Below are positions 14,608 to 64,000 of a stretch of DNA of 64,000 nt, one piece after another; the first letter of the stretch is position 1, and the number at the start of each line of letters is the position of its first letter. Origin of the DNA: Acrocarpospora catenulata. Lineage in GTDB: Bacteria; Actinomycetota; Actinomycetes; Streptosporangiales; Streptosporangiaceae. Location of the stretch: the NCBI RefSeq assembly GCF_018476525.1, contig NZ_JAHCST010000015.1:107630-171629 (forward strand), read 5' to 3'. The notes under the pieces are model-generated. The model worked only from the letters and a program-made list of their open reading frames with translations. It was not told the DNA's origin and did no database searches. The position numbers and the translations under genes are program-made.

Positions 14608-14609
14608 TC

Positions 14610-15143
14610 GAACGACAGGATGCGGTTGACCCGCTCTACCCCCTGTATCGAGTCACCGGAACGGGACAACTCGTAAGCCAGGACGCCGCAGCCGTGGAAC
14701 GGGCTTGGACCCGGATGGTGGCGGGCTCCGCCTGTCTGCTTACCGGTGTCAGTACGAGGCTGCTCGACATGACCGTGGCGTACGTGAAGACGCGCCACCA
14801 GTTCGGCCGCCCAGTCGGGTCGTTCCAGGCGGTCAAGCACAAACTGGCCGACGTCGCCACCGGCGTGGACCTCTCGCAGGCCGCGTCCTTCGCCGCCTTC
14901 CGCGACACCAGCGCCCCGGACGCCCCCGTACGGGCGGCCGTAGCCAAGGCTTACGCGGGGGAGGCGGCCCGCCCGGCCGACGTGGAGGCACTCCAACTGC
15001 ACGGCGGCATCGGATTCACCTTGGAGTACGGCCTCCAGTTCTGGCTGAAACGCGCGATGTCCCTCTCGGCCGCCTACGGCACCGCCAGGGAGCACCGCCG
15101 CTCCCTCGCCGTACGCCTACTGGCCCGGGAGACGGCCCGATGA
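14610..15143 (+). pseudogene. Acyl-CoA dehydrogenase fragment (C-terminal half only)
   Basis: The open frame reads YPLYRVTGTGQLVSQDAAAVERAW, then the complete C-terminal helical domain (VAYVKTRHQFGRPVGSFQAVKHKLAD, LQLHGGIGFTLEY, and FWLKRAMSLS). About the first 170 residues of a normal acyl-CoA dehydrogenase, including the FAD-binding beta domain, are absent; the frame instead runs back into the upstream membrane-protein gene. It overlaps the ligase start by 4 nt, so it was the first gene of that operon. A translated stub from an internal start (for example ATG 14716) is possible but could not bind FAD properly alone. Confidence 0.75.
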
Positions 15144-16693: not shown

Positions 16694-17079
16694 AACCCCT
16701 ACCCCTGCCCACCCCCGACACCGCCGCGTTCTTCGCAGCCATCGACGCGGGCGAACTCAAGGTGCCCCGCTGCAGCGCGTGCGGGAGGTTCTTCCTCTAC
16801 CCGCGCGCCTACTGCCCGTTCTGCACATCCGACCAGGTGACCCTGGAACCGGCTTCCGGCCGGGGCTCGCTGGAGTCCTACGTGGTCAACCATCGCCCAG
16901 CGCCCGGCTTCGAGGAGGACGCGCCCTACGTACTCGGGGTGGTCCGGTTGGCCGAGGGCCCCACACTGTTCGCCGAAATCGCCGGAGACCCCGTCGTCGA
17001 CGGGGACCTCGAAGCGTTCTTCGAACCCCGCAGCGACCGAAATGTCCTGAAATTCCGGATGAGGAAGGCGGCCGGATGA
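16690..17079 (+). CDS. DUF35 OB-fold / zinc-ribbon protein
   Basis: 129 residues. N-terminal helix (TAAFFAAIDAGELKVPRCSACG), zinc ribbon with CSACG and CPFC at about 30-50, then an OB-fold with YVVNHRPAPGF and APYVLGVVRL. DUF35 proteins partner with thiolase-superfamily enzymes, as in the ChsH2 C-terminal domain with the aldolase Ltp2, where they form an obligate complex. Its gene overlaps the thiolase-like gene by 4 nt, which supports that partnership. Confidence 0.88.
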   Translation: MKPLPLPTPDTAAFFAAIDAGELKVPRCSACGRFFLYPRAYCPFCTSDQVTLEPASGRGSLESYVVNHRPAPGFEEDAPYVLGVVRLAEGPTLFAEIAGDPVVDGDLEAFFEPRSDRNVLKFRMRKAAG

Positions 17080-18221
17080 GCCTCCGAGGCAAGGTCGCGA
17101 TCGTCGGCGCGGCCGAGACCGACCGCATCGGCAAGGTCCCCGACAAGTCGGCACTCGAACTGCACGCCCAGGCCGCCGTCAACGCCCTCCGCGACGCCGG
17201 TCTCACCCCCGCCGACGTGGACGGCGTCGCCTCGGCGGGAGAATCACCGGTAGACGTGGCCGACTACCTGGGAATCGTCCCGGACTACCTGGACGGCACC
17301 AACGTCGGGGGCAGCTCGTACATGCTGCACGTCCGCCACGCCATGGCCGCCATCACCTCCGGCCTCTGTACCACCGTCCTGATCACCCACGGCGAATCCG
17401 GACGCTCCCGCGTCGGCATGGTCCCATGGGCGCCCGCCCCGCAGTCGTACATGGCCCAGTTCGAGGTCCCACACGGCCCCATCGGCGCCCCCGCGCTCTT
17501 CCCGATCGGCGTACGCCGCTACATGCACCAGTACGGCATGACCGAAGAACAACTCGCCATGGTCCCCGTGGTCCAACGCCAGTGGGCGGCACGCAACCCC
17601 CGAGCCAAACTCCGCGACCCGATCACCGTGGCCGACGTCCTGGCCTCCCCGATCATCGCCGACCCGATCCACCTACTCCACTGCTGCCTGGTCACCGACG
17701 GCGGCGGCGCCCTGGTCCTCACCTCAGCCGACCGCGCCCGCGACTTCGCCGCCCCGGTCTACGTACTGGGCGCAGGCGAATCAAGCGAGTCCTCAATCGT
17801 CGCCGGCCTACACGACCTCACCTCCTCCCGCGCCATCGAACGCGGCGGCACAGCAGCCATGCGCCAAGCCGAGATCACCCACGCCGACGTCAACCACCTC
17901 ATGATCTACGACGCCTTCGCCCACGTCCCCGTCTACGGCCTGGAAGACCTCGGCTTCGTCAAACGCGGCGAGGCCCCCGCCTTCATCACCGACGGCAACA
18001 CCGCCCCCGGCGGCCCACTCCCCATGAACACCAACGGCGGCGGCCTCTCCTACACCCACACCGGCATGTACGGCATGTTCGCCATCCAGGAATCAGTACG
18101 CCAGGTCCGCGGCACCGCTCCCGCCCAGGTCCCCGGCGCGGACATCAGCCTGGTCACCGGCGTGGGCGGCATGTTCATGAGCTCAGGCACACTGGTGCTT
18201 GGTAGCGCCCGAACCCTCTGA
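17076..18221 (+). CDS. SCP-2 thiolase-like protein, possible retro-aldolase of Ltp2 type
   Basis: 381 residues. Thiolase-superfamily start (VAIVGAAETDRIGK) and end (GADISLVTGVGGMFMSSGTLVLG) with a late His-rich loop near NTNGGGLSYTHTG. Where true thiolases have the acyl-accepting Cys near residue 85-95, this protein reads TNVGGSSYMLHVRHAM with no Cys. Loss of that Cys and pairing with DUF35 are features of the Ltp2-type aldolases that cleave beta-hydroxy acyl-CoA side chains. So carbon-carbon cleavage by retro-aldol rather than thiolysis is likely, as an inference. Confidence 0.82.
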   Translation: MSLRGKVAIVGAAETDRIGKVPDKSALELHAQAAVNALRDAGLTPADVDGVASAGESPVDVADYLGIVPDYLDGTNVGGSSYMLHVRHAMAAITSGLCTTVLITHGESGRSRVGMVPWAPAPQSYMAQFEVPHGPIGAPALFPIGVRRYMHQYGMTEEQLAMVPVVQRQWAARNPRAKLRDPITVADVLASPIIADPIHLLHCCLVTDGGGALVLTSADRARDFAAPVYVLGAGESSESSIVAGLHDLTSSRAIERGGTAAMRQAEITHADVNHLMIYDAFAHVPVYGLEDLGFVKRGEAPAFITDGNTAPGGPLPMNTNGGGLSYTHTGMYGMFAIQESVRQVRGTAPAQVPGADISLVTGVGGMFMSSGTLVLGSARTL

Positions 18222-22035: not shown

Positions 22036-23124
22036 TCACGATCGTGCTCGCGACCTTCGTGGTTGGAAGTCGGGCTTGGGATGGCGTAAATGGGATGATG
22101 CGAGGCCATCGGCCGGAGGATGGTCCTCGTCCGTGTTCTCGGCGGGCAACGTCGCGTTGAGCATCACCGTGCGGGCAGGCTGCCCAGGCGTTTGCAGGCG
22201 TTCGAGCAGCAGCTTCCCGGCGACCTGACCAAGCTCGTACGCCGGTTGATGGATCACCGAGATCGCGGGTGTGAGCAGGCTGGTCCATGGCGCGTCGTCG
22301 AAGACGACGATCTCCACGTCGATGCTGGGCCGCAGCTGCCGGTCGCGCAGCACCTGGAGGACGCCGACTGCCATCATGCTGTTGGCCACCAGGATCGCCT
22401 CGACCGGACCGGCGTCGGTCCCGTCGAGAAGTTCGACGGCGGCGAGGTGGCCGCCCTGCTCGTTGAAGTCGGCGTAGCGGATCAGGCTCTCGTGCAGTGG
22501 CAGGCCGGCCTCGTGCAGCGCCTCTCGGTATCCGAGGACCCGCTCGCCGGCGGTGAAGACCCGGCGCGGCCCGGTGATGCAGGCGATCCGCCGGTGCCCG
22601 CGGGTGATCAGGCGGTCCACGGCGGCCCGGGCCGCCCTGCGGGAATCGATGAGAACGGTGTCGACGGCGAGGTCCTGCCGTAGCGGACGGTCCATGGTGA
22701 TCACTGGCAGCCCGCGGGCGAGCAACCGGTCGACCGGGCTGGTGGGCGAGGTAGGCGTGATCAACACGCCGGATACCCGGAACTGTTCGGCGATACTCAG
22801 GTAGCTCGCCTCCTTGTCCGGCCGCTCGTCGGTGTTGCAGAGAAGCAGGGAGTAACCCTCGGATTGAGCGATGTCTTCGATCCCGCGGGTGACCTGGGTG
22901 AGGAACGGGTTCTCGATGTCCGCGATAATCAGCGCCCAGGTGGCGGAGGACTGCTGGCGCAGCGATCTGGCCAGCGTGTTCGGCACGTAACCGAGTTGCC
23001 GAGCCGCCTCCCGCACGCGCCGGGCCGTCTCCGGCCGGACCGCGGTGTCGGAGGCGAAGACCCTCGACACCGTGGCCGTCGACACCTCGGCGAGTCGAGC
23101 CACGTCACGGATGGTGATCGTCAA
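22036..23124 (-). CDS. LacI-family repressor of the sugar operon
   Basis: 362 residues from a TTG at 23124; an earlier TTG at 23190 would add 22 non-family residues. N-terminal helix-turn-helix ITIRDVARLAEVSTATVSRVFAS, hinge helix PNTLARSLRQ, and a periplasmic-binding-type sugar domain (SRRAARAAVDRLITRGHRRIACITG). It is divergent from the ABC operon, over a 270-bp gap holding three operator-like repeats. The last about 35 residues (PAENTDEDHPPADG onward) do not follow the usual LacI ending, suggesting a late frameshift or a replaced tail. Confidence 0.88.
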   Translation of the reverse strand: MTITIRDVARLAEVSTATVSRVFASDTAVRPETARRVREAARQLGYVPNTLARSLRQQSSATWALIIADIENPFLTQVTRGIEDIAQSEGYSLLLCNTDERPDKEASYLSIAEQFRVSGVLITPTSPTSPVDRLLARGLPVITMDRPLRQDLAVDTVLIDSRRAARAAVDRLITRGHRRIACITGPRRVFTAGERVLGYREALHEAGLPLHESLIRYADFNEQGGHLAAVELLDGTDAGPVEAILVANSMMAVGVLQVLRDRQLRPSIDVEIVVFDDAPWTSLLTPAISVIHQPAYELGQVAGKLLLERLQTPGQPARTVMLNATLPAENTDEDHPPADGLASSHLRHPKPDFQPRRSRARS

Positions 23125-44870: not shown

Positions 44871-47456
44871 ATGGGCGGTGTCGTGGTGGCTCGGCGGGTA
44901 GTTGCTCGGGTCGTGGTGGCCGTGGCTGGGACGGTTGCGGTAGGGGTGGCGGTCAACCAGGTACTGAACGGCGGGGTGTGGAACTGGTGGGCGCTGGGCG
45001 TCTCGGCGACCGTCGCGGTGACCTTCGAATCGGTGACGCGATGGCTGGACCACCGTGAAGAGGCATTGGCCGCACCTGCCTTGCCGCCGGTCTCGCCACG
45101 GCGGCTCCAAATGGTCACGCTTGACGGCGTCAGCCGGGGTGCGCTCGCGAGCGATTATGGACTGATCGCCCGTGTCACGCCTGCGGTGCCGCTGGAGGAG
45201 GTGAAGGCGAGACCGGGGCTGAAGAACGTGCCGGTGCAAACGCGGGAGTTCGTCGGACGCGACCGCGATATGGCAGATCTGGAAAACGCTCTCACCGGCC
45301 CGGGGCCCGTGGTCGTCGCTGTCGTGCACGGCCTCGGCGGTGTCGGCAAGTCAACCCTCGCCGCCCGCTACGCGATCAGCCAAGCACTGGAGCAACGGTC
45401 GTCGCCCGTGTGGTGGATCACCGCTGAAGGCCCGTCGGAGATACAGAACGGGCTCGCGAGCCTGGCAGTGGCGCTGCAGAGCGAGGTGGCCGGGATGGAG
45501 TTGGAGGAACTGGCGGACCGGGCGGTGCTGTGGCTGGACTCGCACAATGACTGGCTGCTGGTGCTGGACAACGTCGCGGACCCCTCGCACATCGCGCCAC
45601 TGCTGGCCCGGGTCGGATCAGGACAGGCACCCACGGGAAACGGCTCACGTCGGATAATCGTGACCAGTCGGCTCGCTGAGGGCTGGGCCCGCATTGGCGC
45701 TCAGGAACTGCGGCTGGACGTGCTGTCAGAACAGCAGGCTGTCGACCTCCTTTTCCGCATCGCTCGCCCCGTTCATGTCGCAGAAGACTGGGAGGGCGTG
45801 GAGGAACTGGTACGGGAACTGGGATGCTTGCCGCTGGCCATAGACCAGGCCGCGGCCTACCTGCACCAGATGAAGCGCACCCCTCGCGCGTACCTGGAAT
45901 CTCTGGCCGGAAATTCTTCGTCCATGTACGGCAAGGTCGCCGAAGGAGCAGACGCGCAACGCACCATCGCCCGTGTCTGGCGGATCACCCTCGATCAGCT
46001 CACCGACGAGTTTCCCCTTACCGGCCACCTGCTGCGAATGCTGGCCTGGTGGGCGCCGGAGGCGATCCCGCTCACTCTGCTGGATCCTGTCACCAAGACG
46101 ATGCCCAACCAACCGATGCCCGCCGGCCCCGTGAGTTCCCGGATTTGGCGACTGGGAATGGGCCTCATCCGGACCGGGGAGCGGATGGGCGACTGGGCCG
46201 ACAGCCGGGGGACGACCTTCAACTGGTCCATCGTCAGTGCGCTCACCGACGCGCTTGGCCTCGAGACAGCCCTGGGCAAACTCGCCGCCTTCAACATGAT
46301 CACCCTGGGCCGCGACACCGTCACTGTCCACCGACTCGTCCAAGCCGTCGCTCGTACCCCCGACCCCCAAGACCCTAACCGCGCTGCCGCGGACATCGAC
46401 AAAGCTCGCGCTCAAGCCACTCGTCTCATGATCTACGCCCTGCCCGGCAACGTCGACGACCCCGCCACCTGGCCCGTCATGCGGACCGTGTTTCCTCATA
46501 TCGATGCCCTCAATAACCACACATCTGCTGACACCGAATCCATCGGACTGCTGTGCAATCGCGTCGGGAACTTCCTTCGCGGCCAGGGCGCGCACAACCG
46601 GGCCATCACCTACCTGAACCGGTCGCTGACCATAACCGAACGCCTGCACGGTCCTCACCACGACGAGGCCTTGACCACGCGCAGCAACATCGCTCTAGCC
46701 CATCAGGAGGCGGGCGACTACCAGCGGGCACTACCCATGCTCCAGCAGGTTCTCGACGAATCCAGCCAGCAGCGGGGCAGCGCTCACGAGGCCACATTGG
46801 CGTGTCTCAACAACCTGGCCCTTGCTTACCAGGACGTGGGTGACCACGAGCGGGCGATCCCCCTGTTTGAACAGGCTGTCGCAGGCTCGGTCAACGAAGA
46901 CCACTCAAACACCCTGATCTTTCGCGCCAATCTCGCCTCGTCCTACCAGACGGTAGGCGACGAGCGGGCGATCCCTCTGGCCGAGCAGAATCTCGCCGAA
47001 GCCGTACAGAGGCTGGGTGGCGACAACGTCATCACACTGAGTTGTCAAATAATTCTCGGCATGCTGTACGAATCGGCAGGTGATTACGGGCGGGCGATTC
47101 CCTTGCAGGAACAGAATCACGCAGACTGCGCACGCGTGTTGGGGAGCGATCACCCACTCAGTCTGGCCTCCTGCCGGAGTCTCGCGTCTTCCCTCCACGC
47201 CTTTGGCGACTATACGCGGGCAGCTTCTTTGCAGGAGCAGAATCACGCCGATTACCAACGCGTATTAGGGAGAGACCACCCGCTCGCCCTGATCGCCTGC
47301 AACAATCTCGCCCGCTCATATGAGTCGACAGGTGACCTGGGCCGAGCAGTACATTTATACGAGCAGACTCTCACTGACAGCCTGCGAGTGCTTGGAGAGA
47401 ATCACCGAATCACCGTGAAGGTTCGGAGCAACCTCGAACGCGTCCAGACAGCATGA
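44871..47456 (+). CDS. Membrane-anchored STAND NTPase (NB-ARC) with C-terminal TPR array
   Basis: 861 residues from ATG 44871; a TTG at 44856 is possible. Two hydrophobic stretches near residues 6-25 and 30-45 anchor the N-terminus. FVGRDRDMADLENAL leads into Walker A GLGGVGKSTLAARYA (154-168), Walker B WLLVLDNVAD (228-237), and the sensor region IIVTSRL and GCLPLAIDQAAAYL. From about 560 to the end run TPRs of about 42 residues (NRVGNFLRGQGAHNRAITYL, HQEAGDYQRAL and so on). STAND proteins switch on when the repeats sense a ligand; some act in phage defence. No effector domain or partner gene is adjacent. Confidence 0.85.
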   Translation: MGGVVVARRVVARVVVAVAGTVAVGVAVNQVLNGGVWNWWALGVSATVAVTFESVTRWLDHREEALAAPALPPVSPRRLQMVTLDGVSRGALASDYGLIARVTPAVPLEEVKARPGLKNVPVQTREFVGRDRDMADLENALTGPGPVVVAVVHGLGGVGKSTLAARYAISQALEQRSSPVWWITAEGPSEIQNGLASLAVALQSEVAGMELEELADRAVLWLDSHNDWLLVLDNVADPSHIAPLLARVGSGQAPTGNGSRRIIVTSRLAEGWARIGAQELRLDVLSEQQAVDLLFRIARPVHVAEDWEGVEELVRELGCLPLAIDQAAAYLHQMKRTPRAYLESLAGNSSSMYGKVAEGADAQRTIARVWRITLDQLTDEFPLTGHLLRMLAWWAPEAIPLTLLDPVTKTMPNQPMPAGPVSSRIWRLGMGLIRTGERMGDWADSRGTTFNWSIVSALTDALGLETALGKLAAFNMITLGRDTVTVHRLVQAVARTPDPQDPNRAAADIDKARAQATRLMIYALPGNVDDPATWPVMRTVFPHIDALNNHTSADTESIGLLCNRVGNFLRGQGAHNRAITYLNRSLTITERLHGPHHDEALTTRSNIALAHQEAGDYQRALPMLQQVLDESSQQRGSAHEATLACLNNLALAYQDVGDHERAIPLFEQAVAGSVNEDHSNTLIFRANLASSYQTVGDERAIPLAEQNLAEAVQRLGGDNVITLSCQIILGMLYESAGDYGRAIPLQEQNHADCARVLGSDHPLSLASCRSLASSLHAFGDYTRAASLQEQNHADYQRVLGRDHPLALIACNNLARSYESTGDLGRAVHLYEQTLTDSLRVLGENHRITVKVRSNLERVQTA

Positions 47457-53256: not shown

Positions 53257-53730
53257 TCACTCCTCTTCTGGCAGGAACTTCACCAGTGCGGTTCGTTGTG
53301 CCCGGCAGACCACGATGCCGTTCTGGTTGAGTCCGCGGTGTTCCAGGGTCACGATGCCCTGGCCAGGGCGGGAGGCGGAGGGGCGCGTGTTGATGATCTC
53401 GCTTTCGCAGTAGAGGGTGTCGCCGATGAACACCGGGGCGGGGAAGGCGATCTCGCCGAAGCCCAGGTTGGCGATCGTGGTTTTCTGGGTGAGGTCGCCG
53501 ACGCCGATGCCGCAGACGATGGCCAGGGTGAGCAGGCTGTTGACCAGCCGCTGGCCGAACTCGCTGTCGGCGGAGGCGACCGCGTCCAGGTGGAGTGACT
53601 GGCTGTTCATGGTCATGGTGCAGAACAGGACGTTGTCGGCTTCGGTGATGGTCCGGCCGGGTTCGTGGCGGTAGACGTCGCCGACGATCATTTCCTCGTA
53701 GTAGCGCCCGCGCCTGGTGTGAACGGTCAC
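53257..53730 (-). CDS. MaoC-like (R)-specific enoyl-CoA hydratase
   Basis: 157 residues, hot-dog fold. YYEEMIVGDVYRHEPGRTITEADNVLFC and NSQSLHLDA form the hydratase-2 type motif (Asp/His near residues 31-48), then PVFIGDTLYCESEI. It hydrates enoyl-CoA intermediates in fatty or alicyclic acid breakdown. Preceded by GAGG; 7 nt after the CoA-transferase stop, so the two are one operon divergent from the Liv genes. Confidence 0.87.
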   Translation of the reverse strand: MTVHTRRGRYYEEMIVGDVYRHEPGRTITEADNVLFCTMTMNSQSLHLDAVASADSEFGQRLVNSLLTLAIVCGIGVGDLTQKTTIANLGFGEIAFPAPVFIGDTLYCESEIINTRPSASRPGQGIVTLEHRGLNQNGIVVCRAQRTALVKFLPEEE

Positions 53731-53737
53731 GTGGTCC

Positions 53738-54985
53738 TCATTTCTGTGGATAGGGTTCGAGTGCCGCCCGGTGGTCGGGATGGGCGACTTGGGTCAGAGA
53801 CTCCGCGCGCTCGGCCGTGGTCTTGCCGCGCAGCCAGGCCACCCCGTACTCGGTCACGACGGCGTCGGGGGTGTGCCGGGGGATGGTGGCGACCGCGCCG
53901 GTGGGCAGGGCGGGCACGATCCGGCTGTGTCGGCCGTCCGGGGTGGTGGAGCTCATCGCGATGACGGACAGGCCGCCGGGGGAGGTGTGCGCGGCCTCGG
54001 CGAAGTCCGCGCCGCCGCCGACGCCGCTGACCTGCCGGTCGCGTACGGTCTCGGAGTTGACCTGGCCGAGCAGGTCCACCTCGACGGCCGAGTTCACCGA
54101 CACCAGCCCGGGCAGGCCGCCCAGGTGGCGCGGCGCGTGGCCGGTGCGGCTGTCGAAGACGCCGATCGAGGGGTTCCCGTCGGCGAAGTCCATCAGGGTG
54201 CGGGTGCCCATCAGCTCCACGGCCGCGACGGCGGGGGAGGGCATCATGGCCAGCGGGCTGAGCACGCCGCTCTCGAAGAGGCCCACCATGGCGTCGGTGG
54301 CCATGCCGACCACCCGGATGTCGCGCAGGCCGCTGCCGGCCAGGCCGTGGATGAGCGACTCGGGGACGGCGCCGAGGCCGAACTGGAGCACGGGACGCTC
54401 CGGCAGCAGGTCGAGCAGGTGCGCGGCGATGCGGTCGGCGATGGGGTCGCGTGGGGTTGCGGGGAACTCGCACATGGGGGTGTCGGCTTCCACCAGCGCG
54501 GTGATCTCCGAAACGTGCACGGCGGTGTCGCCGTGGGTGCGGGGGAGCTGCGGGTCGACCTCGGCGAGCACCACCGTCGCCCGGGTGACGGCCGCTCTGA
54601 CGTAGCTCGCGGAGGGGCCCAGGTTGCAGTAGCCGTTGCGGTCAGGCGGGGAGACCCGGATCAGGGCGGCGTCGGTCCGCCAGTGGCCGAGCAGGGCGGG
54701 TACGGCGGAGGCGCGGGCGGGCACGTACTCGCCGATGCCGCGGGCCGGGCCGTATGGGTGCCAGGTGAGGTAGCGCAGGTGGCCCTGGCGTACCGCGTCC
54801 AGGAACGGGTAGCCGCCGAGCTGGAGCCCCGAGTACAGGGTGGGCGCGGGCAGCAGGTCCGCGGTCTCGCCCAGGGCGCGGAGCAGGGTCTCGGGGGTGC
54901 CGCAGCCGGGGGAGCCGACGATCCGGGCGTTCGCGGGGAGCAGGCGGACGGCCTCGCCCGGCGGGAGCGTGCGGGGGAACGGCAT
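53738..54985 (-). CDS. Acetyl-CoA hydrolase/CoA-transferase family protein
   Basis: 415 residues from ATG 54985 (MPFPRTLPPGEAVRLLP). ARIVGSPGCGTPETLLRAL, WRTDAALIRVSPPDRNGYCNLG, and SPAVAAVELMGTRTLMDFADGNPSIGVFDS fit the CoA-transferase family with a catalytic Glu in the AVEVDLLGQVNSE segment. It would move CoA between acetate/succinate-type acids and the pathway acid. The coding frame remains open upstream through a 71-bp duplicated block, so the true start could be ambiguous (an ATG at 55057 lies in the second copy). Confidence 0.8.
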   Translation of the reverse strand: MPFPRTLPPGEAVRLLPANARIVGSPGCGTPETLLRALGETADLLPAPTLYSGLQLGGYPFLDAVRQGHLRYLTWHPYGPARGIGEYVPARASAVPALLGHWRTDAALIRVSPPDRNGYCNLGPSASYVRAAVTRATVVLAEVDPQLPRTHGDTAVHVSEITALVEADTPMCEFPATPRDPIADRIAAHLLDLLPERPVLQFGLGAVPESLIHGLAGSGLRDIRVVGMATDAMVGLFESGVLSPLAMMPSPAVAAVELMGTRTLMDFADGNPSIGVFDSRTGHAPRHLGGLPGLVSVNSAVEVDLLGQVNSETVRDRQVSGVGGGADFAEAAHTSPGGLSVIAMSSTTPDGRHSRIVPALPTGAVATIPRHTPDAVVTEYGVAWLRGKTTAERAESLTQVAHPDHRAALEPYPQK

Positions 54986-55115: not shown

Positions 55116-55129
55116 AGCAAGTGCTTGAT
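55116..55129. promoter_or_regulatory. KstR2-like operator 1
   Basis: AGCAAGTGCTTGAT fits the published KstR2 pattern AnCAAGnnCTTGnT at every fixed position. It lies in the divergent promoter between the CoA-transferase and livH genes. Confidence 0.7.
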
Positions 55130-55171
55130 TTACCTTGACACCAATCAGAGGACCTGGATAGCTTCCGGTAA

Positions 55172-55185
55172 AGCGAGCGCTTGAT
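55172..55185. promoter_or_regulatory. KstR2-like operator 2
   Basis: AGCGAGCGCTTGAT differs from the pattern by one base. It sits 18-31 nt before the livH start, where a bound repressor would block transcription initiation or elongation. Confidence 0.6.
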
Positions 55186-55202
55186 TTGTGGAGGAAGCGG
55201 TC

Positions 55203-56090
55203 GTGACACTAGTCATCCAGCAACTCGTGAACGGCCTCGCCCTCGGTGCCGTGTACGCGCTCTTCGGCGTGGGTTTCGCTCTGATCCTCACCAAGATGGG
55301 CATCCTGAACGTCGCCCACGGCACGTTCGCCACCTGGGGCGCCCTGGTCGCCTACTTCGCCGTGGCCGACGTGGGCCTGCCCTTTCCCCTGGCACTGGTG
55401 GTCGGCGTGGTGGCCGCCGGAGTGATCGGCGTCCTCACCGACCTGGTGGCCTTCGAGCCGCTGCGGCGCAGGAACGCCGGGCTCTTCGCGCCCATCATCG
55501 CCAGCATCGGCATGTGGATCCTGCTCCTCACCGTCGCTCAGGCGGTGTTCGGGGCCACGGCCACCAGCTTCCCCGACCATGCGGTGCCGTCAGGACCGAT
55601 CAAGTTCGCGGGCCTGGTGATCCTGCCGGCGCAGCTGCTCAACATCGCCGCCGCGCTGCTGGTCGCCTTCGGACTGCACCTGGCGCTCACCCGGACCCGG
55701 TTCGGGGCCGCCGTGCGGGCCATCTCCGCCGACCCCAGGTCGGCCACCATCGTCGGCGTCAACGCGGCACGCACCCTCCGGCTGGTGGCCTTCACGGCCG
55801 CCGCCATCGCGGGTCTGGCGGGCGTGCTGGCCGGGCTGTCGTCCAACAACGTCTCCTTCGACCTCGGCGAGGCGCTGCTGCTCAAGGGCTTCGCGGCGGT
55901 CGTGGTCGGCGGTTACGGGGACATCCGCGGCGCGGCACTGGCCGGATTCATGATCGGCATTCTGGAGGTGGTCAGCGCGCAGTACATCTCCTCCGGCTTC
56001 CGGGACGCGATCACCTTCGGGGTGCTGCTCGTCATCCTGGTGCTCCGGCCGCAGGGCATGTTCGGCGAGCGGAAGCTGGCCCGCGCATGA
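55203..56090 (+). CDS. livH: Branched-chain-type ABC permease LivH
   Basis: 295 residues from GTG 55203 (GGAGG 10 nt before); an earlier GTG at 55188 has no ribosome site. VTLVIQQLVNGLALGAVYALFGVGFALIL start and VVGGYGDIRGAALAGFMIGILE with RPQGMFGERK end are typical LivH. About eight helices. It forms half of an HAAT-type channel for hydrophobic amino or carboxylic acids. Overlaps livM by 4 nt. Confidence 0.92.
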   Translation: MTLVIQQLVNGLALGAVYALFGVGFALILTKMGILNVAHGTFATWGALVAYFAVADVGLPFPLALVVGVVAAGVIGVLTDLVAFEPLRRRNAGLFAPIIASIGMWILLLTVAQAVFGATATSFPDHAVPSGPIKFAGLVILPAQLLNIAAALLVAFGLHLALTRTRFGAAVRAISADPRSATIVGVNAARTLRLVAFTAAAIAGLAGVLAGLSSNNVSFDLGEALLLKGFAAVVVGGYGDIRGAALAGFMIGILEVVSAQYISSGFRDAITFGVLLVILVLRPQGMFGERKLARA

Positions 56091-56944
56091 ACCTGGCAGC
56101 CTGGAACACCACCCTGCAGTTCGCGGGGGTCAGCGCGATCTTCGCGCTCAGCATCTACGCCTCGCTGTGGACCGGCGTGCTCAGCCTGGCCCCGGTCTTC
56201 TTCGGCGCGGTCAGCGCCTTCACCTTCGGCTGGGTGACGCTCACCGTGGGGCTGCCCCCGGTGGCGGGCCTGGTCCTGGCAGCAGCCGGCGGCGGACTGC
56301 TCGGCGTGCTCACCGCCTTCCTGGTGCTGCGGCTGGAGAGCCACTACCTGGCCATGGCCACCATCGCGCTGGTCCTCATCGGGCGGGTGCTGGTGCTCAA
56401 CATGGAGGACTTCACCGGCGGCGTGGCCGGCACCCTCGCCCCCGGCGACCTGGGCACCTGGCTCTGGTGCCTGGGCTGCCTGGGGCTGGCCGCCTACGTG
56501 CTGGCCCGGCTGCGCGGCTCGCGGTTCGGCCTGGCGGCCTCGGCCGTACGGGAGGACCCGGCCGTGGCGCAGTCGCTGGGCATCAACCCCCGTTCGGTGC
56601 AGCTGGTGGGCTTCGTGCTCTCCGGGGTGTTCGGCGGCATGGCCGGGGTGCTCCAGGCGAGCTTCCTCCAGTTCATCGGCCCCGACACCTTCTACACCCA
56701 CCTGGGCTTCACCACCCTGGCGGCGGTGGTGCTCGGCGGGGCCTTCCACTGGCTGGGCCCGATCATCGGCGCCGTGGTCTTCACCGCCCTGCCCGAGCTG
56801 CTGCGCGGGCCGCTGGGCGAGTTCGACTCCATCGTCACCGGCCTGCTGCTCGTCGTGATCATCATCTACCTGCCCCGGGGGCTGGTGGACCTACGGCGGC
56901 TCCGCCTGCTCCGGGGGCGCGGGAAGACGGCGGTGTCCGAATGA
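56087..56944 (+). CDS. livM: Branched-chain-type ABC permease LivM
   Basis: 285 residues. SHYLAMATIALVLIGRVLV, the cytoplasmic AVREDPAVAQSLGINPRSVQLVGFVLSG coupling segment, and VVLGGAFHWLGPIIGAVVF are LivM hallmarks. Partner of LivH. Overlaps livG by 4 nt. Confidence 0.92.
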   Translation: MNLAAWNTTLQFAGVSAIFALSIYASLWTGVLSLAPVFFGAVSAFTFGWVTLTVGLPPVAGLVLAAAGGGLLGVLTAFLVLRLESHYLAMATIALVLIGRVLVLNMEDFTGGVAGTLAPGDLGTWLWCLGCLGLAAYVLARLRGSRFGLAASAVREDPAVAQSLGINPRSVQLVGFVLSGVFGGMAGVLQASFLQFIGPDTFYTHLGFTTLAAVVLGGAFHWLGPIIGAVVFTALPELLRGPLGEFDSIVTGLLLVVIIIYLPRGLVDLRRLRLLRGRGKTAVSE

Positions 56945-57747
56945 GCAACGCCATCGAGATCGAGGGGCTGGTCAAGACCTTCGGCGGCCTGCGCGCGGTC
57001 GCCGACGTCGACCTGCGGGTGCCGCAGGGCAGCATCTACGGCCTGCTCGGCCCGAACGGGGCAGGCAAGACCACCGTGCTGAACATGATCAGTGGCTTCC
57101 TCACCCCCGACCAGGGGGTGATCCGGGTGCACGGCAAGGAGACGCACGGCCTGCCCCCGCACCGGATCGCCCGCGAGGGCGTGTCCCGCACCTACCAGAA
57201 CATCCGGCTCTTCCCCGGCATGACCGTGCTGGAGACGGTCGCCACCGGCGCCTACCAGCGGCGGCGCTCCAGCATCCTGGGGGCCGTGCTGCTCAGCCGC
57301 GCCGAGCGCAGGGAGCGGGCCGAGGTGACCGCCAAGGCACGGGCCCTGATGGAGCAGGTGGGCATCACCGCGCCGCCCGGCGCGCTGGCCGAGACGCTCT
57401 CCTACGGCGACCAGCGGCGGGTGGAGATCGCCAGGGCGCTGGCCGCCGAGCCCCGGGTGCTGCTGCTGGACGAGCCCACCGCCGGGATGAACGACGCGGA
57501 GTCCCACCAGGTCGGCGAGCTGCTGCTGACCCTGCGCGGGCAGGGCCTGACGCTGGTCCTGATCGAGCACAACATGCGGCTGGTCGAGGAGTTCTGTGAC
57601 CAGGTCACCGTGATGAACTCCGGCGCCGTGCTCGCCGTCGGCACCCTCGCGGCGTGCCTGGAACAACCCGATGTCAGGGAGGCCTACTTTGGCAAGCGAT
57701 CCGATGCTCGCCGTATCGAGACTCTGCGCCGCGCACGGCGTGGTTGA
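56941..57747 (+). CDS. livG: Branched-chain-type ABC ATPase LivG
   Basis: 268 residues. Walker A LLGPNGAGKTTVLN at about 37-50, Q-loop RTYQNIRLF, signature LSYGDQRRVEIARAL, Walker B VLLLDEPTAGM, and the switch His in VLIEHNM. C-terminus runs past the usual VREAYFGK ending by 18 residues and overlaps livF by 59 nt. Confidence 0.93.
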   Translation: MSNAIEIEGLVKTFGGLRAVADVDLRVPQGSIYGLLGPNGAGKTTVLNMISGFLTPDQGVIRVHGKETHGLPPHRIAREGVSRTYQNIRLFPGMTVLETVATGAYQRRRSSILGAVLLSRAERRERAEVTAKARALMEQVGITAPPGALAETLSYGDQRRVEIARALAAEPRVLLLDEPTAGMNDAESHQVGELLLTLRGQGLTLVLIEHNMRLVEEFCDQVTVMNSGAVLAVGTLAACLEQPDVREAYFGKRSDARRIETLRRARRG

Positions 57748-58408
57748 GGCCGTCCGCGACGTCGACCTGCGGGTGCCCAAGGGCGCGCTGGTGGCCCTGG
57801 TCGGGGCCAACGGCGCAGGCAAGACGACCACCCTCAACTCCATCGCCGGGCTGCACAAGCCGTCGTCGGGGAAGGTCGTGGTCGGCGGGCGGGACGTCAC
57901 CGGCTGGCCCTGCCACCGGCTGGTCCGGGCGGGGGTCGCGCTGGTGGCCGAGGGCCGCCGGGTGGCGCCCTCGCTCACCGTGCTGGAGAACCTGGAACTC
58001 GCCGTGTACGCCAAGCGCCGCGACAAGGCCGACTTCCAGCAGCAGATCGGCCGGGTCTACGACCTGTTCCCGGTGCTGGCCGAGCGGCGCCGGCAGTACG
58101 CGGGACTGCTCAGCGGCGGCGAGCAGCAGATGCTGGCGGTCGGGCGGGCCCTGATGACCCGGCCCGACGTGCTGGTCCTGGACGAGCCGTCGATGGGCCT
58201 GGCCCCCTCCATCGTGGACGTGCTGTTCACCACCATCTCCACCCTGCACGAGACGGGCTCCACCATCCTGCTCGTCGAGCAGAACGCCGAGCTGGCCCTG
58301 GCCGTCAGCGACTACCTCTACGTCATGCACCGCGGCCGGATCGTGGCCGAGGGCGAGCCGGACGAGCTCCGCTCCCGTCCCGAGATCATGACGGCCCTGT
58401 TCGGCTGA
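57689..58408 (+). CDS. livF: Branched-chain-type ABC ATPase LivF
   Basis: 239 residues from TTG 57689 with GGAGG 8 nt upstream; ATG 57671 or ATG 57704 are alternatives. Walker A LVGANGAGKTTTLNS, LSGGEQQMLAVGRAL, VLVLDEPSMGLAP and ILLVEQNA complete the ATPase. With LivG it drives uptake. No LivK binding protein is in the window. Start lies deep inside livG, so translation is tightly linked. Confidence 0.91.
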   Translation: MASDPMLAVSRLCAAHGVVEAVRDVDLRVPKGALVALVGANGAGKTTTLNSIAGLHKPSSGKVVVGGRDVTGWPCHRLVRAGVALVAEGRRVAPSLTVLENLELAVYAKRRDKADFQQQIGRVYDLFPVLAERRRQYAGLLSGGEQQMLAVGRALMTRPDVLVLDEPSMGLAPSIVDVLFTTISTLHETGSTILLVEQNAELALAVSDYLYVMHRGRIVAEGEPDELRSRPEIMTALFG

Positions 58409-58429
58409 TTCCCATCGAGAGGCACTCCT

Positions 58430-59323
58430 GTGAGCGAGATCAGACTGGACGGCCAGGTCGCCGTCGTCACCGGCGCCGGTCGCGGGCTCGGCCGCGCGCA
58501 CGCGCTGCTGCTGGCCGCGCGCGGCGCGGCGGTCGTGGTGAACGACGTCGGCGCGGCCCTGGACGGGGCAGGCGCCGAGCTGAGCCCCGCCGAGCAGGTG
58601 GTCAAGGAGATCACCGAGGCGGGCGGCGCCGCGGTGGCCGACGCCACCGACATCAGCACGCCCGAGGGCGCCGAGCAGGTGGTCGCGCGGGCGCTGGACG
58701 GTTTCGGGCGCCTGGACATCCTGGTCAACAACGCCGGCATCCTGCGCGACCGCACCATGGCCAAGCTCACCAGGGACCAGGTGGACCCGGTGCTCGCGGT
58801 GCACCTGGGCGGGACGATCTGGATGACCAAGGCCGCCTGGCCGGTCTTCACCGAGCGCCGGTACGGGCGGATCGTCAACACCACCTCGGCCGCCGGCCTG
58901 TTCGGCAACTTCGGGCAGACCGCGTACGCGGCGGCCAAGGCGGCCATCGTGGGCGCCACCAAGACGCTGGCCCTGGAGGGCGCCCGGCACGGCATCGCGG
59001 TCAACGCGATCGAGCCGGGGGCGCGCACCCGGATGACCGAGGACCTGCTGGGCGACCTGGCCGACCGGCTCGACCCTGAACTGGTCGCGCCGCTGGTGGT
59101 CTGGCTGGCCGCGCGGGAGTGCGAGGTCACCGGCGAGGTCTACAACGTGGGCGGCGGCCGGGTGGCGCGGGTGCTGGTCGCGCAGACCCCCGGCTACTTC
59201 TCCCGGTCGGTGTCGCCGGAGGAGATCCGCGACAACTGGGCGCAGATCAACGACCTGTCCCAGGCGTCCGTCATCGCGACCTTCCAGCAGGAGCTTGAGC
59301 TGCTGGTCCGGCAGCTGTCCTGA
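58430..59323 (+). CDS. MFE-2-type short-chain 3-hydroxyacyl-CoA dehydrogenase
   Basis: 297 residues, GTG start. AVVTGAGRGLGRAHALLLAARGAAVVVNDVG, NNAGILRDRTM, and the AYAAAKAAIVG catalytic Tyr-Lys element match the SDR domain of peroxisomal-type multifunctional enzymes; the extra C-terminal 60 residues (VARVLVAQTPGYFSRSVSP onward) are also usual for that subgroup. It oxidises a hydroxyacyl-CoA to the ketone and would act after the MaoC hydratase in beta-oxidation. Lies 22 nt after livF. Confidence 0.87.
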   Translation: MSEIRLDGQVAVVTGAGRGLGRAHALLLAARGAAVVVNDVGAALDGAGAELSPAEQVVKEITEAGGAAVADATDISTPEGAEQVVARALDGFGRLDILVNNAGILRDRTMAKLTRDQVDPVLAVHLGGTIWMTKAAWPVFTERRYGRIVNTTSAAGLFGNFGQTAYAAAKAAIVGATKTLALEGARHGIAVNAIEPGARTRMTEDLLGDLADRLDPELVAPLVVWLAARECEVTGEVYNVGGGRVARVLVAQTPGYFSRSVSPEEIRDNWAQINDLSQASVIATFQQELELLVRQLS

Positions 59324-59365
59324 CGAGATGTGCCCGATTTGTGCCGTGCCCTGCCAGCAAAGTAA

Positions 59366-59379
59366 AGCAAGCGTTTGAT
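59366..59379. promoter_or_regulatory. KstR2-like operator 3
   Basis: AGCAAGCGTTTGAT matches AnCAAGnnCTTGnT with one mismatch. It stands 42-55 nt before the LLM oxidoreductase start and implies a second promoter of the same regulon there. Confidence 0.6.
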
Positions 59380-59420: not shown

Positions 59421-60680
59421 GTGAAGTTCACCTATTTCCATCTGATGCCCTTTGACGGGCTTCCAGAGGACTTCGCCCAGAAGCACCGGAGCGTCTGGGT
59501 GGACATCGACCCCCGTCTCATGGACGTGCGGCGCATCCACCACCTCTACAACGACTACCTGGACGAACTGGAGCACGCCGCCCGCATGGGCTTCGACGCG
59601 ATCGGCGTCAACGAGCACCACAGCAACGCCTACGGCCTGATGTCGAGCCCGAACATGATGGCCGCCTCGCTGGCCCGGCGCACCGCCGACACCGACGCCA
59701 AGATCCTGGTCATGGGCGACGCGGTGCCGCTCTACAACCCGCCCATCCGGATCGCCGAGGAACTGGCCATGCTCGACGTGATCAGCGGCGGGCGGCTGAT
59801 CACCGGGTTCCCGCTCGGCAGCAGCCAGGACACCAACTACGCCTACGGCATCAAGCCCGCCACCGTGCGCGAGCGCTACTACGAGGGCTTCGAGCTGATC
59901 CTCAAGGCGTGGCAGTCCCAGGAGGTGTTCAGCCACAACGGCCGCTACACCAAGCTGCGCTACGTCAACCCCTGGCCCAAGCCGCTCCAGCAGCCGCACC
60001 CGCCCATCTGGGTGCCCGGCAGCGGCTCCCTGGAGACCATGGACTTCGCCATCCGGCGCGACTTCCCGTTCTTCTTCCTCTCCTACTTCGGCACCGAGTT
60101 CTCCGGCTCGATGCTCCGCCGCTTCTGGGAGCGCGCCGAGGCCGCCGGGGTGGACGACAACCCGTACCGGGTGGGCATGTTCCAGCCGATCCTGGTCGCC
60201 GACACCGACGAGGAGGCCGAGCGCCTCTACGCCGACCACGTGAAGTACTTCTACCGCCGGTGCACCCACACCTACCCCGGCTTCGCCGAGGCCCCCGGCT
60301 ACAAGAGCGTGGAGTCGCTGCGCGCGGTGCTGCCGCCGCCCGGCGCGAAGACCACCCAGCGGCCGGACAGCTTCCGCGCGGCCAAGGACTACGAGTGGGC
60401 GGACTTCGTGAACCTCGGCATCATCATCGCCGGCAGCCCCAGCACCGTACGGGAGAAGCTGGAGCATTTGGCGAGCACCATGCGCATCGGCAACTGGATC
60501 GCCCTCATGCACATCGGCGACATGCCGCGCGAGAAGGCGATGAACAACATCGAGCTGTTCACCACCAAGGTCAAGCCCGGCCTGTCGGAGGTCTTCAGCC
60601 AGTACGAGCACAACTGGTGGCCGAAACCGATCCCCGGCTTCGAACCGGCGTCCGTCGCTCCCGTGGCGGTGGCCCGATGA
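59421..60680 (+). CDS. LLM-class flavin-dependent oxidoreductase
   Basis: 419 residues from GTG 59421 with GAGGGA upstream. Luciferase-like barrel: FDAIGVNEHHSNAYGLMSSPN, LDVISGGRLITGFPLGSS, WKPLQQPHPPIWVPGSGS, and a long C-terminal part. LLM enzymes use FMN or F420 and oxygen or hydride chemistry; in catabolic clusters they often open rings or oxidise side chains. Downstream of its own KstR2-like box. Overlaps the hydrolase gene by 4 nt. Confidence 0.86.
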   Translation: MKFTYFHLMPFDGLPEDFAQKHRSVWVDIDPRLMDVRRIHHLYNDYLDELEHAARMGFDAIGVNEHHSNAYGLMSSPNMMAASLARRTADTDAKILVMGDAVPLYNPPIRIAEELAMLDVISGGRLITGFPLGSSQDTNYAYGIKPATVRERYYEGFELILKAWQSQEVFSHNGRYTKLRYVNPWPKPLQQPHPPIWVPGSGSLETMDFAIRRDFPFFFLSYFGTEFSGSMLRRFWERAEAAGVDDNPYRVGMFQPILVADTDEEAERLYADHVKYFYRRCTHTYPGFAEAPGYKSVESLRAVLPPPGAKTTQRPDSFRAAKDYEWADFVNLGIIIAGSPSTVREKLEHLASTMRIGNWIALMHIGDMPREKAMNNIELFTTKVKPGLSEVFSQYEHNWWPKPIPGFEPASVAPVAVAR

Positions 60681-61462
60681 GGCACACCTTCGAGGGCCCG
60701 CACTCCGGCGACGTCACCGTCGTCGACGAACTCGGCACGTCCACCGGTCCCGTCCTGGTCTACCTGCACAGCGAGTGGGGCGCGTTCGAGGAACCCCCGC
60801 TGCCCGGCGAACTGCTCGACGGCAACCGGGTCCTGGTCGTGCACCTGCCCGGCTGGGGGGTCTCCACCTCCGTGCGGCCCGCCGCCGGCCTGCCTGACCT
60901 GGCGCTGGTCGTCTGGTGGGCGCTGGACCGGCTGGACGTGGGAGAGATCCGGCTGGTCGGCCACGGCATCGGGGCCACCCTCGCCGCCGAGATGGCCGCC
61001 GCCCAGCCCGGCCGGGTCGGTTCGCTGGCGCTGCTCGCCCCGTGGGGCATGTTCGACGAGGCCGACCCCGGCGCGGACATGTTCGCGCTGCTGCCCAGGG
61101 ACCTCAACCCCCTGATCTACGCCGACCCGGACGGGCCGGTCGCCACCGCCCAGCAGCCCCGGCCCGCCGACGCGCACGAGACCGGTCTGGCCGTCATCCG
61201 CCGGGTGCAGATGCTCGGCACCGCCAGCAACTACCTGTTCCCCATCCCGGACACCGGGATCGCCGAGCGGCTCTACCGGCTCGCCGAGGTGCCGGTGCTG
61301 CTGGTCTGGGGAGCTCGGGACGGCGTCGTACCGCCTTCGCTGGCCGCGCTCTGGACCGGCTACCTGCCGCACGCCCGCAGCGAGGTGGTCCAGGACGCCG
61401 CCCACATGGTCCCGTACGAGTCCGCCGACGCACGCAAGCTCATCCTGGAATTCCTGGCATGA
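60677..61462 (+). CDS. Alpha/beta-hydrolase-fold protein lacking the catalytic serine
   Basis: 261 residues. The nucleophile elbow reads LVGHGIGATLAAEM, with Gly97 where hydrolases have Ser (GxSxG). The later acid in LLVWGARDGVVPPS and base in AAHMVPYESAD are kept. So it is unlikely to be a normal serine hydrolase; Ser-less members may use cofactor-free, hydratase, or C-C bond chemistry, or bind only. Overlaps its neighbours by 4 nt on both sides. Confidence 0.83.
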   Translation: MRHTFEGPHSGDVTVVDELGTSTGPVLVYLHSEWGAFEEPPLPGELLDGNRVLVVHLPGWGVSTSVRPAAGLPDLALVVWWALDRLDVGEIRLVGHGIGATLAAEMAAAQPGRVGSLALLAPWGMFDEADPGADMFALLPRDLNPLIYADPDGPVATAQQPRPADAHETGLAVIRRVQMLGTASNYLFPIPDTGIAERLYRLAEVPVLLVWGARDGVVPPSLAALWTGYLPHARSEVVQDAAHMVPYESADARKLILEFLA

Positions 61463-62631
61463 GAACGGCCTTCGACGACCCCGACCACGAGCTGATCGCC
61501 GAGGCGGTCCGCGACCGCTGCGCCGCCTTCCCCGACGAGTACTGGGCCTCCTGCGACGCCGAGCACCGGTTCCCGTGGGAGTTCTTCACCGCCATGGCGG
61601 AGGGCGGCTGGCTGGGCATCGCGCTGCCGGAGGAGTACGGCGGCGCGGGCCGGGGCGTCACCGAGGCGGCGATCGTGCTCCGCGAGGTCGCCGCCTCCGG
61701 CGCGGCCATGAACGGCTGCACCGCCCTGCACATGAACCTGTTCGGGCTCCAGCCCGTGCTCAAGTACGGCAACGAGCGGCTCAGGAAGACCTTCCTGCCC
61801 CCGGCCGCCGAAGGAAGGCTGCACGTCGCCTTCGCGGTCACCGAACCGGACGCGGGCACCGACACCTCGCGCATCAAGACCGCCGCGGAACGGGACGGCG
61901 ACAACTGGGTGATCTCCGGCCAGAAGATCTGGACCAGCAAGGCCCTGGAGTCCGACGTCGCGCTCATCCTGGCCCGCACCGCCCCCGCGCCCGACCAGGA
62001 CCGGCGCAGGTTCGACGGACTCAGCCTGTTCCTGATCGACCTCGACCCCGCGCACGTCGACATCCGGCCCATCCCCAAGGCCGGCCGGAACGCCGTGGCC
62101 AGCTGCGAGACCTTCTACGACCGGCTGCCGGCCGAGGGCTGGCGGCTGGTCGGCGAGGAGGGCAAGGGCTTCCGGCACATCCTGTCCGGCCTCAACCCCG
62201 AGCGCATCCTGATCGCCGCCGAGGCGGTCGGCATCGGGTACGCGGCGCTGCGCCGCGCCACCGAGTACGCCCGGGTGCGCGAGGTCTTCGACCGGCCCAT
62301 CGGCGCCAACCAGGCCATCAGCCACCCGCTCGCCGACGCCTACGCCCGCCTTGCGGCCGCCTGGCAGATGACCATGGTGGCCGCCCGCCGCTACGACGCC
62401 GGGCTGTCCTGCGGGGCCGAGGCCAACATCGCCAAGTACCTGGCCGCCCAGGCCGGGTACGACGCCGCCGACCGCGCCGTGCAGACCCACGGCGGGCTCG
62501 GGTACGCCCACGAGTTCCACGTCGAGCGGTACTGGCGGGAGGCCCGGATCATGCGGCTGGCCCCGGTCAGCCAGGAGATGTCCCTCAACTTCATCGCGCA
62601 GCAGGTGCTCGACCTGCCGCGCGCGTACTGA
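61459..62631 (+). CDS. Acyl-CoA dehydrogenase
   Basis: 390 residues, full length. HVAFAVTEPDAGTDTSRIKTAAERDGDNWVISGQKIWTSKA (FAD-binding), LSLFLIDLD, LNPERILIAAEAVGIGYAALRRATEYARVREVFDRPIGANQA and QTHGGLGYAHEFHVERYWREAR with the usual acid in the last region. It makes the enoyl-CoA for the MaoC step. In contrast to the two broken relatives at 14.6 and 38.4 kb, this copy is intact. Confidence 0.92.
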   Translation: MRTAFDDPDHELIAEAVRDRCAAFPDEYWASCDAEHRFPWEFFTAMAEGGWLGIALPEEYGGAGRGVTEAAIVLREVAASGAAMNGCTALHMNLFGLQPVLKYGNERLRKTFLPPAAEGRLHVAFAVTEPDAGTDTSRIKTAAERDGDNWVISGQKIWTSKALESDVALILARTAPAPDQDRRRFDGLSLFLIDLDPAHVDIRPIPKAGRNAVASCETFYDRLPAEGWRLVGEEGKGFRHILSGLNPERILIAAEAVGIGYAALRRATEYARVREVFDRPIGANQAISHPLADAYARLAAAWQMTMVAARRYDAGLSCGAEANIAKYLAAQAGYDAADRAVQTHGGLGYAHEFHVERYWREARIMRLAPVSQEMSLNFIAQQVLDLPRAY

Positions 62632-62643
62632 GAGGACCGCGTC

Positions 62644-63450
62644 ATGACTGGTGACGGCAGGCTGGCCGGACAGGTGGCGTACGTGCTGGGCGGCGGCAGC
62701 CACGGCCCCGCCCGGCCAGGGGAGGACCTTCCCATGGGCAACGGCCGGGCCATCGCGCTCCGCCTGGCCGCCGAGGGCGCCACCGTCGTGGTCGGCGACA
62801 TCGACCTCGGGCGGGCCCAGGCCACCGTGGACGGACTGGCCACCCCGGGCCTGGCGGTCGAGGTGGACGCCTCCGACGCCGTCTCCTGCCAGGCGGCCGT
62901 GGCGACCGCGCTGGAGGCGTATGGGCGGCTGGACATCGTGGTCTGCAACGTCGGCATCTCCGGGCGGGAGCCGATCAAGGCGCAGAGCCTGCCGGAGTGG
63001 GAGTACTCCGAGGCGGTCAACGTGCGCTCGCACTGGCTCACCGCGCAGGCCGCGCTCGGCCCCATGCTGGACCGCTCGCGCGGCGCGTTCGTCTTCGTCG
63101 GGTCCACCGCCGGGCTGCTGAGCAGCCGCCGCTCGCTGTCGTACGAGGCCACCAAGGCCGCGCAGCTGGCCGTCATGCGGCACATCGCGGTCAGGTACGC
63201 CGCGCGCGGCATCCGCGCCAACGCGGTCGTGCTCGGCGTCATCGACTCGGCGCTGGTCCGGCGCGAGTTCGGCACCGAGGCGGCGCCCGCCCGCGCGGCC
63301 GTGGTCCCGATGGGCCGCGAGGGCCGCCCCGAGGAGGCCGCCGCCGCCGTGGCCTTCCTGGCCTCCGACGACGCCGCCTACGTCACCGGCCAGAGCCTGA
63401 TCGTCGACGGCGGCGTCAGCGCCTCCTGGCCCAGCCCTCAGAAGGGATGA
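62644..63450 (+). CDS. Short-chain dehydrogenase with enlarged cofactor loop
   Basis: 268 residues. The Rossmann start AYVLGGGSHGPARP to MGNGRAIALRLA has about a dozen extra residues inside the normal TGxxxGIG loop. NVGIS, Ser in FVGSTAGLLSS, YEATKAA (Tyr and Lys), and LIVDGGVSASW follow. Long loops with a late GNGRA occur in some catabolic SDRs. Preceded by GAGAGGA. Probable hydroxyacyl-CoA dehydrogenase of this cluster. Confidence 0.85.
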   Translation: MTGDGRLAGQVAYVLGGGSHGPARPGEDLPMGNGRAIALRLAAEGATVVVGDIDLGRAQATVDGLATPGLAVEVDASDAVSCQAAVATALEAYGRLDIVVCNVGISGREPIKAQSLPEWEYSEAVNVRSHWLTAQAALGPMLDRSRGAFVFVGSTAGLLSSRRSLSYEATKAAQLAVMRHIAVRYAARGIRANAVVLGVIDSALVRREFGTEAAPARAAVVPMGREGRPEEAAAAVAFLASDDAAYVTGQSLIVDGGVSASWPSPQKG

Positions 63451-63454
63451 CCTT

Positions 63455-64000
63455 ATGCACAGTGACGTGGTGATCCGGGGCGTCGGCATGACCCCCTTCG
63501 GCAAGTTCCTCGGCTCCTCCATGAAGGACCTGGGGCGGCAGGCCGTCCTGACCGCTCTGGCCGACGCGGGGATGGAGGTCGCGGACGTCCAGGCGGTCTT
63601 CTTCGCCAACGCGCTCGCCGGCCTCATCACCGGCCAGGAGAGCATCCGGGGCGAGACCGTCACCTACCCGCTCGGGTTCGGCACCATCCCCGTGCACAAC
63701 GTGGAGAACGCCTGCGCCTCCGGCGGCAACGCCCTGCACCTGGCCTGGCTGGCGGTCGCCTCCGGCCTGTACGACACCGTGCTCGCGCTGGGCGTGGAGA
63801 AGGCCAACCACGAGGACCGCGCCCGCACCTTCCGCGCGTTCGGCGCCGGCATGGACGTGGAGGACGGCTTCGCGGTCGGTGACGGCGCGGGGGAGAACCG
63901 CAGCCCGTTCGTGGACCGGCAGGCCCGGCTGGCGCGCACGCTCTTCGGCGAGCGCGGGGTCACCATGGACGGCCTGGCCCGGGTCACCTCGCGGTCGCTG
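63455..64000 (+). CDS. Thiolase (acetyl-CoA acetyltransferase), cut by the window end
   Basis: First 182 codons from ATG 63455. VVIRGVGMTPFGKFLGSSMKDLG start, and acyl-accepting Cys in NVENACASGGNALH near residue 87, as in SCP-2/lipid-transfer thiolases. It cleaves the final ketoacyl-CoA. Only 4 nt after the SDR stop. The C-terminal half with the His and second Cys is outside the window. Confidence 0.88.
   Translation, partial: MHSDVVIRGVGMTPFGKFLGSSMKDLGRQAVLTALADAGMEVADVQAVFFANALAGLITGQESIRGETVTYPLGFGTIPVHNVENACASGGNALHLAWLAVASGLYDTVLALGVEKANHEDRARTFRAFGAGMDVEDGFAVGDGAGENRSPFVDRQARLARTLFGERGVTMDGLARVTSRSL

Follow-up and report, generated by a model that had tools for sequence, protein, structure and literature searches.

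A 64,000-nucleotide stretch of the Acrocarpospora catenulata genome (contig NZ_JAHCST010000015.1, positions 107,630 to 171,629; hereafter the window) contains three 14-bp boxes resembling the operators of the TetR-family regulator KstR2. With a probability of roughly 0.85, these boxes are the operators of a regulon under a sister (paralogue) of KstR2 encoded on another contig, C116, and they serve a catabolic gene cluster that has been broken up in this genome. As read from the sequences, this rests on the positions of the boxes, their conservation, the clustering of the TetR gene with them in other genera and the common ancestry of the split cluster. The boxes and the associated promoter elements are as follows.

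55116-55129, + strand: operator 1, AGCAAGTGCTTGAT, 5 bp upstream of the livH -35 hexamer
55135-55140, + strand: TTGACA, -35 hexamer of the putative livH promoter
55159-55164, + strand: TAGCTT, probable -10 of the livH promoter
55172-55185, + strand: operator 2, AGCGAGCGCTTGAT, shortly after the -10 and over the presumed transcription start
59366-59379, + strand: operator 3, AGCAAGCGTTTGAT, about 42 bp before the start codon of a luciferase-like monooxygenase (LLM) gene

The original prediction, made from the window alone, had listed these three boxes with 0, 1 and 1 mismatches to the consensus ANCAAGNNCTTGNT, and they were found exactly so, at 55116, 55172 and 59366; all are intergenic and of the KstR2 operator type AnCAAGnnCTTGnT. 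The first differs by one base from AGCAAGTGCTTGCT, a Mycobacterium tuberculosis site bound by KstR2 in gel shifts (PMC3068626). A scan of the window with one mismatch allowed gave 3 matches against 0.47 expected, a count reached by 3 of 100 shuffles; this is only suggestive, and it is the genome-wide and comparative tests that settle the question. The sequence AAGCRAGNGYTTGAT is present in five exact copies in the 10.29-Mb genome, where base composition predicts about 0.05; three are the window boxes, and the other two precede a SnoaL/LLM operon (C108) and a short-chain dehydrogenase gene (C112). The motif is thus not common by chance across the genome, the outcome that would have told against the original prediction. 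The bare consensus ANCAAGNNCTTGNT, with seven sites genome-wide where a few are expected, was no commoner than its reversed control (eight) and was therefore dropped as proof. A match on C149 (AAGCAAGCGCTCGCT) was unconvincing, lying inside a predicted gene, and one on C111 (AAGCAAGTGCTCGAC) had a low matrix score. When a weight matrix trained solely on boxes from other genera was run over the 64-kb window, the three boxes took the top three places, with scores of 32.7 (operator 1), 28.1 and 25.8, the next separate site reaching 11.4. The boxes lie in blocks of about 25-30 bp that are identical across three Acrocarpospora species, while the flanking sequence varies. On sequence grounds, the three boxes are real operator-like sites.

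The arrangement at the divergent promoter between livH and a CoA-transferase-like gene is kept across genera: Actinophytocola and Nocardioides, too, have two boxes there, separated by 56-59 bp, and in most species a TTGACA -35 comes shortly after the first box. Of the eight aligned promoters, only that of Actinophytocola lacks TTGAC at this position. Operator 1 is identical in Acrocarpospora pleiomorpha, Acrocarpospora macrocephala, Actinophytocola, Nocardioides and Nocardiopsis. The off-consensus G of operator 2 recurs in other genera, with one additional change in Nocardiopsis, and operator 3 is identical in both sister species, A. pleiomorpha and A. macrocephala. In these two, the LLM box is preceded by a further box in tandem, AAGCAAGCGTTCGAT, a copy that the window lacks.

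The candidate regulator is encoded elsewhere in the genome.

G000:C116:235356-235994: TetR gene on C116

Its product belongs to the TetR family (PF00440, E=5e-17; PF17932, E=7e-19) and matches the solved KstR2 structure 4w1u with E=6.4e-33, being 33% identical to M. tuberculosis KstR2. It does not group with the characterised KstR2 proteins: in a tree, it and 12 other cluster TetRs form a clade apart from 4w1u, 2ibd and a second homologue in this genome, on C78. Five similar boxes (AAGCAANNGCTTGMT) surround the gene, between 229 and 238 kb of C116. The gene itself follows a DUF35-fused synthase-like gene and a thiolase gene behind one box, and others precede genes for a flavin reductase, an acyl-CoA dehydrogenase and a LivK-type binding protein (assigned from the Pfam matches of the A. 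pleiomorpha orthologs). The TetR_N profile had no match on C57, C108 or C112 (150 of 373 candidates scored). The statement that no TetR gene lies near the boxes therefore stands for this assembly, though the absence reflects a rearrangement special to this genome. The related regulator that had been postulated has a good candidate in this KstR2-family protein, which is distinct from the KstR2 homologue and clusters with the window genes and boxes elsewhere, and the genome search that had been proposed for the motif and adjoining TetR genes leads to C116 and to a regulon wider than the window, extending to C116, C108 and C112.

Relatives link the C116 gene to the window. The LLM gene is shared by two further members of the genus, A. 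pleiomorpha and A. macrocephala, and in each of them what is split here between C116 and the window runs uninterrupted as a cluster of about 30 genes, the TetR gene among them, with boxes at the matching places. TetR orthologs (54-61% identical), with the same gene order and boxes, were found in Actinophytocola, six Nocardioides, two Nocardiopsis and Mycobacterium sp. IS-3022; the last has a reduced cluster, with no liv genes in the part read. In seven of the ten genomes from other genera, all copies of ANCAANNNCTTGMTT fall on the contig of the TetR gene, in a stretch of about 40 kb surrounding it, against 0-2 copies per genome for the reversed control; the remaining three genomes also have copies on different contigs, and several of these take the form ACCAAGCACTTGCTT, which is known from KstR2 sites. 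The outlying copies in A. catenulata have counterparts too: the C108 SnoaL/LLM pair is 59-74% identical to orthologs inside Nocardioides clusters, and the C112 dehydrogenase, whose box is kept in both sister species, is 52-60% identical to in-cluster Nocardioides genes.

Some points weigh against control by the C116 protein. The clade of 13 TetRs has moderate bootstrap values (86/99), the KstR2-like G of CAAG, present in the window boxes, is replaced by T, C or A in the five C116 boxes, and the separation of the cluster parts could be partly an assembly error, since one break sits at a repeat. The genome also holds a closer KstR2 homologue, that on C78 (44% identical to M. tuberculosis KstR2; 4w1u, E=2.4e-48), which could bind the same boxes, and cross-talk is therefore possible. 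That this C78 protein, alone or as main regulator, controls the window boxes is nevertheless unlikely: it is 44-46% identical to characterised KstR2-type proteins, and operator 1 is very close to a site bound by one of them, but across genera the boxes are syntenic with the C116-type TetR gene, the C78 gene adjoins no regulon gene, and the likely KstR2 boxes of this genome look different: AACAAGCGCTTGTT, next to CoA ligase and enoyl-CoA hydratase genes on C144, scores just 13.9 with the regulon matrix. By its sequence, the C78 protein is probably the KstR2 homologue proper, and it may serve AACAAGCGCTTGTT. The latter (L082:6477) lies between the hydratase and ligase genes, whose names were read from sequence, and a further site, ACCAAGCGCTTGTT (L015:8539), lies about 2.4 kb from the C78 TetR gene; both are probable true KstR2 boxes. 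The C78 site and its TetR were set aside as a source of control, with unrelated genes lying between the two.

A regulator of another family is very improbable. LacI-type regulators also favour AAGCGCTT palindromes, the boxes have palindromic symmetry about a centre of G and C or T, and a LacI-type gene seems, from the start of its sequence, to be present at 22036-23085 of the window; yet no such gene was seen accompanying the boxes in the related clusters, all of which have the TetR. Chance resemblance has a negligible probability, for while the one-mismatch count within the window is matched by occasional shuffles, the excess of exact copies genome-wide and the conservation across genera at nearly fixed spacing both stand against it; this conservation, the grouping of copies around the TetR gene in other genera and the matrix ranking refute it in our view.

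Control by the KstR2-sister TetR would in this genome act across a cluster in three pieces, as compared with A. pleiomorpha, the boxes being intact. One cut falls inside a second acyl-CoA dehydrogenase gene, of which residues 1-151 are encoded on C116 and the remainder in the window, next to displaced members of the cluster.

14522-14571, + strand: repeat at the break, about 53 bp, 90.6% identical to a repeat at the matching C116 break
14601-15143, + strand: 3' half of the acyl-CoA dehydrogenase gene (5' half on C116)
15140-16693, + strand: displaced CoA ligase of the cluster
16690-17079, + strand: displaced DUF35 protein
17076-18221, + strand: displaced thiolase

The view that the four genes between the two halves had been lost from this genome proved wrong, as they are present at 14601-18221. 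The matching C116 break region is at about 242231-242750 (L021:2232-2751), and the repeat found on both sides of this first break suggests, as far as sequence can tell, recombination at repeats. A related short repeat is also seen on C144 (L082:30-62). The interval between the thiolase and MaoC-type hydratase genes, 15 bp in A. pleiomorpha, is here occupied by 35 kb of other genes (18222-53256). Judging from their protein starts, these include genes for ribonucleotide reductase, superoxide dismutase, sugar uptake and kinases, and the interval is therefore not obviously a mobile element. The same region holds a large open reading frame (45186-47456) with a possible NTPase signature (GGVGKST) and a GC content at third codon positions (0.76) that is low and unlike its neighbours. 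The pathway may be impaired in this strain, because one dehydrogenase gene is cut. An HMG-CoA lyase-like enzyme is encoded in the relatives' clusters; the gene (L070:11582-12493) is absent from its place in A. catenulata (L017:13148-13175), and a search confined to the window, L017 and L021 found no match to it.

The window genes of the cluster lie on either side of the divergent promoter.

53257-53730, - strand: MaoC-type hydratase
53738-54985, - strand: CoA-transferase-fold protein (acetyl-CoA hydrolase/transferase family), catalytic glutamate absent
55203-56090, + strand: livH, branched-chain-type ABC permease
56087-56944, + strand: livM permease
56941-57747, + strand: livG ATPase
57689-58408, + strand: livF ATPase
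58430-59323, + strand: short-chain dehydrogenase
59421-60680, + strand: LLM, an Acrocarpospora-specific part of the regulon
60677-61462, + strand: alpha/beta hydrolase, 4-bp overlap with the LLM gene
61459-62631, + strand: acyl-CoA dehydrogenase
62644-63450, + strand: short-chain dehydrogenase
63455-64000, + strand: thiolase, running past the window end, followed on C57 by an amidohydrolase, a CoA ligase and an LLM

The window has livHMGF without livK, and the LivK gene sits in the C116 cluster. The CoA-transferase-like protein belongs to PF13336/PF02550. Its Gly227, invariant in eight orthologs of four genera, aligns with Glu238 of 3gk7, which we take to be the catalytic residue of 4-hydroxybutyrate CoA-transferases. 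The designation as a CoA-transferase thus holds for the fold, while the catalytic identity needs care, the glutamate of that family being absent. Glycine also replaces the catalytic glutamate in IpdAB, the ring-opening enzyme of the KstR2 pathway (PMC5380842), and by this analogy a role as a hydrolase is a fair guess. The window LLM gene had no match in the ten genomes from other genera, and its close matches are from Acrocarpospora only; its similarity to 3,6-diketocamphane monooxygenase (4uwm, E=5e-7) is remote. In the other genera, a Baeyer-Villiger monooxygenase gene stands behind a box at the cluster end, and the copy examined, that of Actinophytocola, has OTEMO as its best solved match (E=1.5e-137). 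Homologues (55-63% identical) lie outside the cluster in A. catenulata and A. pleiomorpha, and none was found in A. macrocephala at the threshold used. We infer that the LLM/hydrolase pair may take over ring oxygenation and lactone opening.

On this evidence, binding, repression, ligand and substrate are inferred as follows. A TetR dimer would bind the boxes, at the livH promoter with one dimer next to the -35 and another covering the transcription start, so repressing livHMGF and the short-chain dehydrogenase gene and probably also the divergent operon of the CoA-transferase-like and hydratase genes; the third site would repress the LLM, hydrolase, acyl-CoA dehydrogenase, short-chain dehydrogenase and thiolase genes, and a CoA thioester of the pathway would release the TetR from DNA. 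The cluster as a whole encodes CoA ligases, acyl-CoA dehydrogenases, hydratases, dehydrogenases, thiolases, DUF35 proteins, LLM oxygenases, a flavin reductase and Liv-type uptake, and its predicted steps are Liv-type uptake, CoA activation, oxygenation and beta-oxidation-like reactions. The substrate, much less certain than the regulation, is tentatively placed, at somewhat short of even odds, among the alicyclic and possibly terpenoid acids or ketones. The alicyclic acid of the original prediction is compatible with this gene content, including the OTEMO-like enzyme behind a box in other genera.

The system has much in common with the KstR2 regulon of mycobacteria and Rhodococcus, which serves the catabolism of steroid rings C/D and HIP (PMC3068626, PMC5380842): a same-family TetR whose DNA-binding domain carries LSGSLY(H/Y)(H/Y)F, operators of 14 bp and the same type in divergent promoters, and genes of CoA-dependent catabolism that include a CoA-transferase fold without the catalytic glutamate. 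It differs in the separate clade of its regulator and the relaxed G of the C116 boxes, in having its own LivKHMGF uptake and LLM enzymes, and in that its CoA-transferase fold is of the acetyl-CoA hydrolase family, no two-subunit gene of the IpdAB type being seen in the cluster. As had been predicted, the genes differ from those of KstR2: the ring C/D set (ipdAB, ipdC, fadD3, echA20) is not what stands under the boxes, the cluster genes being those for Liv uptake, LLM, short-chain and acyl-CoA dehydrogenases, thiolase, HMG-CoA lyase and DUF35 proteins. The OTEMO-like enzyme behind a box in related clusters recalls the OTEMO and diketocamphane monooxygenases of camphor breakdown in Pseudomonas putida (PMC6027186), and the predicted combination of LLM, flavin reductase and hydrolase recalls type II Baeyer-Villiger systems, though the remoteness of the window LLM, the regulator and the remaining genes set it apart from the camphor systems. 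KstR3 of Mycolicibacterium neoaurum (PMC10398937) is likewise a TetR-type repressor, and its operon also holds DUF35 and aldolase genes; it differs in regulating the HBC sterol side-chain operon. The open-access literature gave no relevant match for a KstR2 paralogue or for the present cluster, which does not show that they are undescribed.

For an orphan catabolic pathway present in five or more actinobacterial genera, there is thus now a candidate regulator together with a defined set of operators and an almost complete list of genes, so that its substrate can be sought directly. More speculatively still than the substrate class, the cluster may represent a catabolic system parallel to the KstR2 regulon, with a sister repressor, near-identical operators and a hydrolase of another CoA-transferase-fold family, likewise with glycine for the catalytic glutamate, opening the ring of a cyclic acid; in that case, predictions of KstR2 sites would have confounded the two regulons in genomes that have both. 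For Nocardioides simplex, 29 operons were predicted to carry KstR2 sites, of which only 10 were phytosterol-induced (PMC7807495), and a sister repressor sharing the motif, if present in that strain, could account for some of the discrepancy. The KstR2 motif by itself does not identify steroid genes, as a sister repressor probably uses an almost identical sequence, and a regulon can persist in trans, its boxes unchanged, after the cluster that it governs has been broken up.

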